From: a virus
Length of the DNA stretch: 64,000 nucleotides
IMG/VR virus record: IMGVR_UViG_3300046804_001132
Location: 1-64,000 of that record
Direction: 5' to 3' (one strand)
The position numbers and the translations under genes were made by a program. Each line of letters starts with the position of its first letter. Positions within the stretch are counted from its first letter, which is position 1. The notes beneath the pieces were generated by a model. It was given only the letters and a program-made list of their open reading frames with translations, had not been told where the DNA came from and did no database searches. This document shows, in pieces, positions 55,022-55,377 of this stretch.

Positions 55022-55219
55022 ATGGCTACACGACAGAAGATTACACGAAACGCTGCACAATGCGTTAAGTGTGGGGACATTATTGAGTCTAATCACAGGC
55101 ATGATTTTGTTTCATGTAGTTGCCATGCAATCTTTGTGGACGGTGGTATGGATTACATTCGTATTGGTGGTAACCTAGAAGACATAATTCTTATGACTGA
55201 ATATCAGGAGAAACCGTGA
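55022..55219 (+). CDS. Zinc-ribbon protein (DUF7695-like)
   Basis: 65 residues. AQCVKCGDIIESNHRHDFVS then CSCHAIFVDGGMDYIR is a phage/bacterial small zinc-ribbon family (DUF7695-like, from memory): CxxC...CxC ligands with HRHDF. Its stop overlaps the GTG of the GC-rich gene. Confidence 0.75.
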   Translation: MATRQKITRNAAQCVKCGDIIESNHRHDFVSCSCHAIFVDGGMDYIRIGGNLEDIILMTEYQEKP

Positions 55220-55377
55220 GGACACGCTGCTCATGGCACGGGACGGCGCTCGATGTGTCGAAATGCGACGAGTGCTGGCTCGTCGCAACCGAGTGGACCG
55301 AGGCGGGATTGATCGCCGCAGACTTCAAGACAGCAGTAGAGGCGCTGTACGACAGGAGAAGCCATGAACGTCATTGA
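55216..55377 (+). CDS. GC-rich imported small gene
   Basis: 53 residues from a GTG with AGGAGA upstream, ending inside the methyltransferase gene. CSWH and CDECW suggest a zinc site. Counting gives 97 G/C of 162 bases (60%), far above neighbours, with GCG, CTC, GTC, ACC, GAG codons. The last 14 bases already match the neighbouring gene. This marks recent acquisition from a high-GC actinophage or host. Confidence 0.65.
   Translation: MRTRCSWHGTALDVSKCDECWLVATEWTEAGLIAADFKTAVEALYDRRSHERH

Follow-up and report, generated by a model that had tools for sequence, protein, structure and literature searches.

Introduction

Phage morons are single-gene mosaic insertions at gene boundaries that occur in lambdoid phages and actinobacteriophages. 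Here we describe an ORF of 53 codons in a viral genome that resembles phage morons in being one small gene of atypical composition, located between conserved genes and absent in relatives. The stretch of DNA analyzed, hereafter called the window, comprises 64 kb of a source virus record of 72,090 bases and has a GC content of 39.3%. Very probably, this GC-rich ORF is a small extra gene of recent acquisition that occupies a slot between the genes for tRNA-Glu and a SpoU-family methyltransferase and stems from a donor with approximately 57-61% GC. The features of the locus are as follows (coordinates refer to the window):

54730-54803, plus strand, tRNA-Thr(tgt), left syntenic anchor
54863-54935, plus strand, tRNA-Glu(ttc), left syntenic anchor
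54952-54980, plus strand, sigma-70-like promoter TTGACA-17-TACAAT upstream of DUF7695 (consensus match only)
55022-55219, plus strand, DUF7695 small Cys/His protein of native composition (Pfam PF24749, E=1.8e-23)
55205-55219, plus strand, left box CAGGAGAAACCGTGA, which contains a Shine-Dalgarno (SD) motif and the GTG start, and also the last DUF7695 codons and stop
55205-55363, plus strand, putative transferred segment with ribosome-binding site, ORF body, and new SpoU ribosome-binding site (from SpoU-leader differences and box near-repeats)
55216-55377, plus strand, GC-rich ORF, 53 codons, GTG start, MRTRCSWHGTALDVSKCDECWLVATEWTEAGLIAADFKTAVEALYDRRSHERH, with a C-x2-H-x8-C-x2-C knuckle (from composition, codon use, and Markov simulation)
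55353-55367, plus strand, right box CAGGAGAAGCCATGA, which contains an SD motif and the SpoU ATG start, within the 3' end of the GC-rich ORF
55364-55882, plus strand, SpoU-family RNA 2'-O-methyltransferase, conserved resident gene (Pfam PF00588, E=6.5e-19)
55868-55939, plus strand, tRNA-Gln(ttg), right syntenic anchor
55944-56025, plus strand, tRNA-Leu(caa), right syntenic anchor

Composition and codon usage

A direct count found 97 G or C among the 162 bases of the ORF (0.599), exactly the number given in the initial annotation of this DNA, and the part free of overlaps reaches 62.5% GC. The flanks, which had been described as near 40% GC, have 0.41 and 0.36. Across the 64 kb, 162-nt stretches have a mean GC of 0.393 (sd 0.051), and the highest value of any such stretch, 0.611, is found with a start at position 55205, at the GC-rich ORF. 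When the window was simulated 200 times with a first-order Markov model, the maxima averaged 0.527 and the largest was 0.586, so that none of the 200 reached the observed peak. Other 162-nt stretches with a GC content of at least 0.55 lie over tRNA pairs only.

Codon usage singles out the same ORF. Its mean log-probability per codon under the synonymous usage of the phage is -1.47, lower than that of every one of 284 fragments of equal size from the longer genes of the phage (mean -0.94, sd 0.10, lowest -1.24), and its z under the phage's own codon table is -7.0. The neighboring genes have native scores (DUF7695, -1.03; SpoU, -0.88). Codon use thus shifts at the ORF and reverts after it, as had been claimed, and the composition and codon outlier is limited to this ORF, which shares with morons a composition unlike the surrounding genome. 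GC at the three codon positions is 0.56, 0.54, and 0.70, with a GC3 of approximately 0.29 in the phage. The amino-acid content does not explain the high GC, because back-translation of the protein in phage codons gives only 0.467 ± 0.021.

Synteny of the locus in related viruses

A SpoU protein search of IMG/VR retrieved eight viral contigs (75-84% identity), and all eight relatives keep the order of tRNA, SpoU methyltransferase, and tRNA. The tRNA-Thr gene is found in seven of them (the exception is L009), tRNA-Glu is usual, and SpoU is then followed by tRNA-Gln and/or tRNA-Leu. In L002 and L004, tRNA-Glu was unlisted by ARAGORN but its sequence is present by DNA alignment. A GC-rich ORF at the syntenic site is absent from all eight relatives, as expected of a moron, and so is a DUF7695 gene before SpoU. 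Only about 20 bp separate tRNA-Glu from SpoU in L002 and L007, compared with 428 bp in the window (54936-55363). Elsewhere SpoU is preceded by a gene for 118 amino acids (L003), another gene and tRNA-Tyr (L004), tRNA-Val (L005 and L008), or an amidase-like gene, named by eye (L009). The interval between tRNA-Glu and SpoU is a variable slot. The closest relative is L011, at 92% for the terminase; its contig stops short of the site, and therefore the recency of the gain rests on more distant relatives. Since DUF7695, which is also absent from the relatives, has native composition, we infer that it and the GC-rich ORF probably arrived separately.

The surroundings contain further small genes and elements. 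Two more tiny Cys/His proteins are encoded at 54340-54683, namely DUF7455 (PF24254) and a 34-aa CxxH...C ORF, and both are kept beside the tRNAs in several relatives. Two near-perfect sigma-70-type promoter matches (54272-54300 and 54952-54980; 12/12 and 11/12, spacer 17) precede small Cys/His genes of the tRNA region. Between tRNA-Thr and tRNA-Glu lies a conserved hairpin-capable element (54811-54860), whose 26-nt core GCCGCACGGCGAGGCTCTGATCAGGC is identical and in the same place in L007; it is not a tRNA, has no Rfam match, and its folding z is only -1.1. A short conserved element before tRNA-Thr (54684-54728), AAGGCCAGAGAACAATCCCTG...AAATTGCTCTGGTTACG, is found in the same place in L002. 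Further downstream, by-eye inspection suggested an ORF resembling IMP dehydrogenase / GMP reductase of purine metabolism (59336-60376) and one resembling a fusion of an ABC-type ATPase with a GNAT-like acetyltransferase domain (62419-63519).

Junctions of the putative inserted segment

The SpoU gene of the window starts as ...GACAGGAGAAGCC-ATGAACGTCATTGATGA. Its leader, CAGGAGAAGCC-ATG, differs up to the ATG from those of all eight relatives, which are mostly of the ..CAAAGGA..ATG type, whereas the coding bases from the ATG on are nearly identical between the window and the relatives. This places the end of the foreign segment at the SpoU start codon or very close to it. The GC-rich ORF ends with CAT GAA CGT CAT TGA, and from the ATG onward these are the SpoU bases kept in the relatives; its last residues and stop therefore derive from the recipient, and the protein of the donor may have had another end. 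The initial annotation had proposed a precise integration. This is correct at the SpoU start codon, where the leader was replaced up to the ATG, but not for the ORF's own end, which runs into SpoU and takes its stop.

Single-gene horizontal acquisition, as already suggested in that annotation, is well supported by the composition, the synteny with eight relatives, and the replaced SpoU leader. According to the mechanism that we favor, illegitimate or microhomology recombination would have brought about 150 bp with one tiny ORF and its ribosome-binding site into the variable slot that separates tRNA-Glu from the SpoU methyltransferase gene. The left junction would lie in the last DUF7695 codons, with the stop overlapping the GTG start, and the right junction would be the SpoU start codon, so that the SD motif now serving SpoU would be part of the 3'-terminal portion of the new ORF.

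Alternatively, the ORF could be an old resident gene whose GC is held by constraint and which was lost in the relatives. The high variability of the slot among these viruses makes loss possible, but the GC excess is largest at synonymous sites (GC3 0.70 vs. 0.29), no low-GC homologue was found, and a SpoU leader unlike that of all eight relatives argues against loss. This is the least probable of the alternatives considered here. An assembly artefact, in which a short foreign piece was joined into a metagenomic contig, is also very improbable. The locus is represented by one metagenomic record, no second copy was seen, and the contig of L011 ends before the site; however, a chance misjoin would hardly leave all three frames intact and at the same time fall on an SD-start boundary at one end and a stop/start overlap at the opposite end.

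The two boxes at the ends of the acquired segment match at 13 of 15 bases and form a near-repeat, CAGGAGAARCCRTGA, at both ends. The left box CAGGAGAAACCGTGA encodes the last DUF7695 residues, QEKP, and the stop, which lie at or past the end of the Pfam domain (residues 6-61). The motif GGAGAANCC[AG]TG occurs in the window at the two junctions only, and twice in 955 kb of the relatives. Either the donor segment brought both boxes along, or the exchange was directed by a short stretch of homology at SD-start sites. That the segment represents a one-gene cassette of an orphan small zinc-knuckle protein, bounded by such repeated SD-start boxes (CAGGAGAARCCRTGA), appears unlikely. If it were one, ribosome-binding sites would act as recombination boundaries in the shuffling of tiny ORFs among phages that differ in GC.

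Coding potential and predicted product

We regard it as likely that the GC-rich ORF is coding, because it has an SD motif at proper spacing, a GTG start over the upstream stop, a frame that is intact up to the next gene, neighbors that are all on the same strand, and a Cys/His motif. The overlaps with both neighbors noted in the initial annotation were found as described: GTGA is shared with the upstream stop, and 14 nt are shared with SpoU. Probably the ORF is translated in a DUF7695-ORF-SpoU operon, coupled via these overlaps. Alternatively, the GC-rich stretch could be no gene but an element of RNA or DNA that is structured or otherwise constrained, as are the tRNAs nearby. Elsewhere in the window, high GC indeed coincides with tRNA genes, and when the six frames were scored with GC-60 codon models, the ORF frame was not favored over the others. 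However, the stretch folds no better than shuffled sequences (z -0.62 and -1.44), it has no Rfam or tRNA match, and it contains an open frame with SD motif, GTG start, and overlaps to both neighbors. We thus consider a structured element improbable.

The 53-residue product contains the motif C5-x2-H8-x8-C17-x2-C20, recognized from sequence only, and would have a C-x2-H...C-x2-C zinc knuckle with a helix C-terminal to it, which would make it a protein of the same small Cys/His accessory kind as those encoded around it. Most likely it is a small, putatively zinc-binding accessory protein; the likeliest guess for its role is binding of nucleic acids or proteins. A structure model had low confidence (pLDDT 55), and a fold search with this model gave no match. 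No profile match above the curated cut-off was obtained to DUF7695, DUF7455, or known zinc-finger families, and weak matches to phrog_12767, AAA_lid_12, and MRT4 were at chance level. Two degenerate DNA scans for the motif C..WHG..C..CW retrieved chance frames plus CGCHGLPVEPPFCEECW (in L143 and others), an analogous small protein whose similarity outside the knuckle is not convincing.

Recipient genome and origin of the ORF

The terminase of the window shares 54-55% identity over its full length with Streptomyces phages of the Stanwilliamsviridae, and the majority of its matches are from Streptomyces and Gordonia phages. The window genome is probably itself that of an actinophage, and its host is perhaps a low-GC actinobacterium. 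The Nanopelagicales belong to the Actinobacteriota and are low in GC; for two phages isolated on Nanopelagicales, the GC is 44.7-44.8%, with a host GC of 46.5% (PMC10202952). A scan of genome contigs for DUF7455, run for host inference, gave no match.

No homologue of the GC-rich ORF was found in 50,697 phage records or 72,556 plasmids, and none in IMG/VR contigs or GTDB genomes, where the scans detect close relatives only. A lone plasmid match is due to chance (E 6e+0), and DNA matches to mycobacterio- and rhodococcus phages are meaningless (26-37 nt, E 1-5). Homologues of the same GC in other low-GC phages, which according to the initial annotation would point to constraint rather than transfer, did not turn up in these searches. 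Under the codon tables of phages with 57-61% GC, the ORF has a z of -0.9 (Pseudomonas), -1.4 (Rhodococcus), and -1.7 (Mycobacterium), and tables of phages with 47-51% GC are rejected (Gilson, -3.1; a Burkholderia phage, -3.8). Codon use thus suggests a donor genome of about 57-61% GC and allows an estimate of its GC, not of its lineage. A Pseudomonas and an actinobacterial donor are not separable by the codon tables. The earlier assignment to a high-GC actinophage or actinobacterium is not borne out, as no homologue was found and the Pseudomonas phage fits at least as well. Nor does the host switching or co-infection deduced from it follow: the terminase of the recipient is closest to those of Streptomyces phages, and therefore an actinophage donor would imply no host switching.

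Comparison with known systems

The gain of the GC-rich ORF is ordinary phage mosaicism with unusually readable junctions in an actinophage-like genome. As in phage morons, the junctions are at start/stop boundaries. In contrast to morons, the ORF lies within an operon, and the following gene supplies its C-terminus. Strictly defined morons carry their own promoter and terminator; neither was seen directly around the ORF, the nearest plus-strand promoter-like site precedes DUF7695 (54952-54980), and no terminator-like site was seen 3' of the ORF. The term moron thus applies in the loose sense only. The locus illustrates cleanly and on a small scale how a phage gained one foreign gene at start/stop boundaries, with the start codon of the recipient as the junction and the end of the incoming ORF replaced. 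It documents gene flow between genomes of different GC and says nothing firm about the identity of the donor. Like the products of the neighboring DUF7695 (PF24749) and DUF7455 (PF24254) genes, the predicted protein is tiny, has two Cys/His pairs, and is encoded in the same tRNA-rich accessory region, but it has no profile match to either and the spacing of its Cys/His pairs differs. Among the Stanwilliamsviridae, Streptomyces phage Gilson and others resemble the window in having tRNA clusters and tiny ORFs downstream of the terminase, but the Gilson stretch has 47% GC, compared with 39% in the window, and contains no match to the GC-rich ORF.
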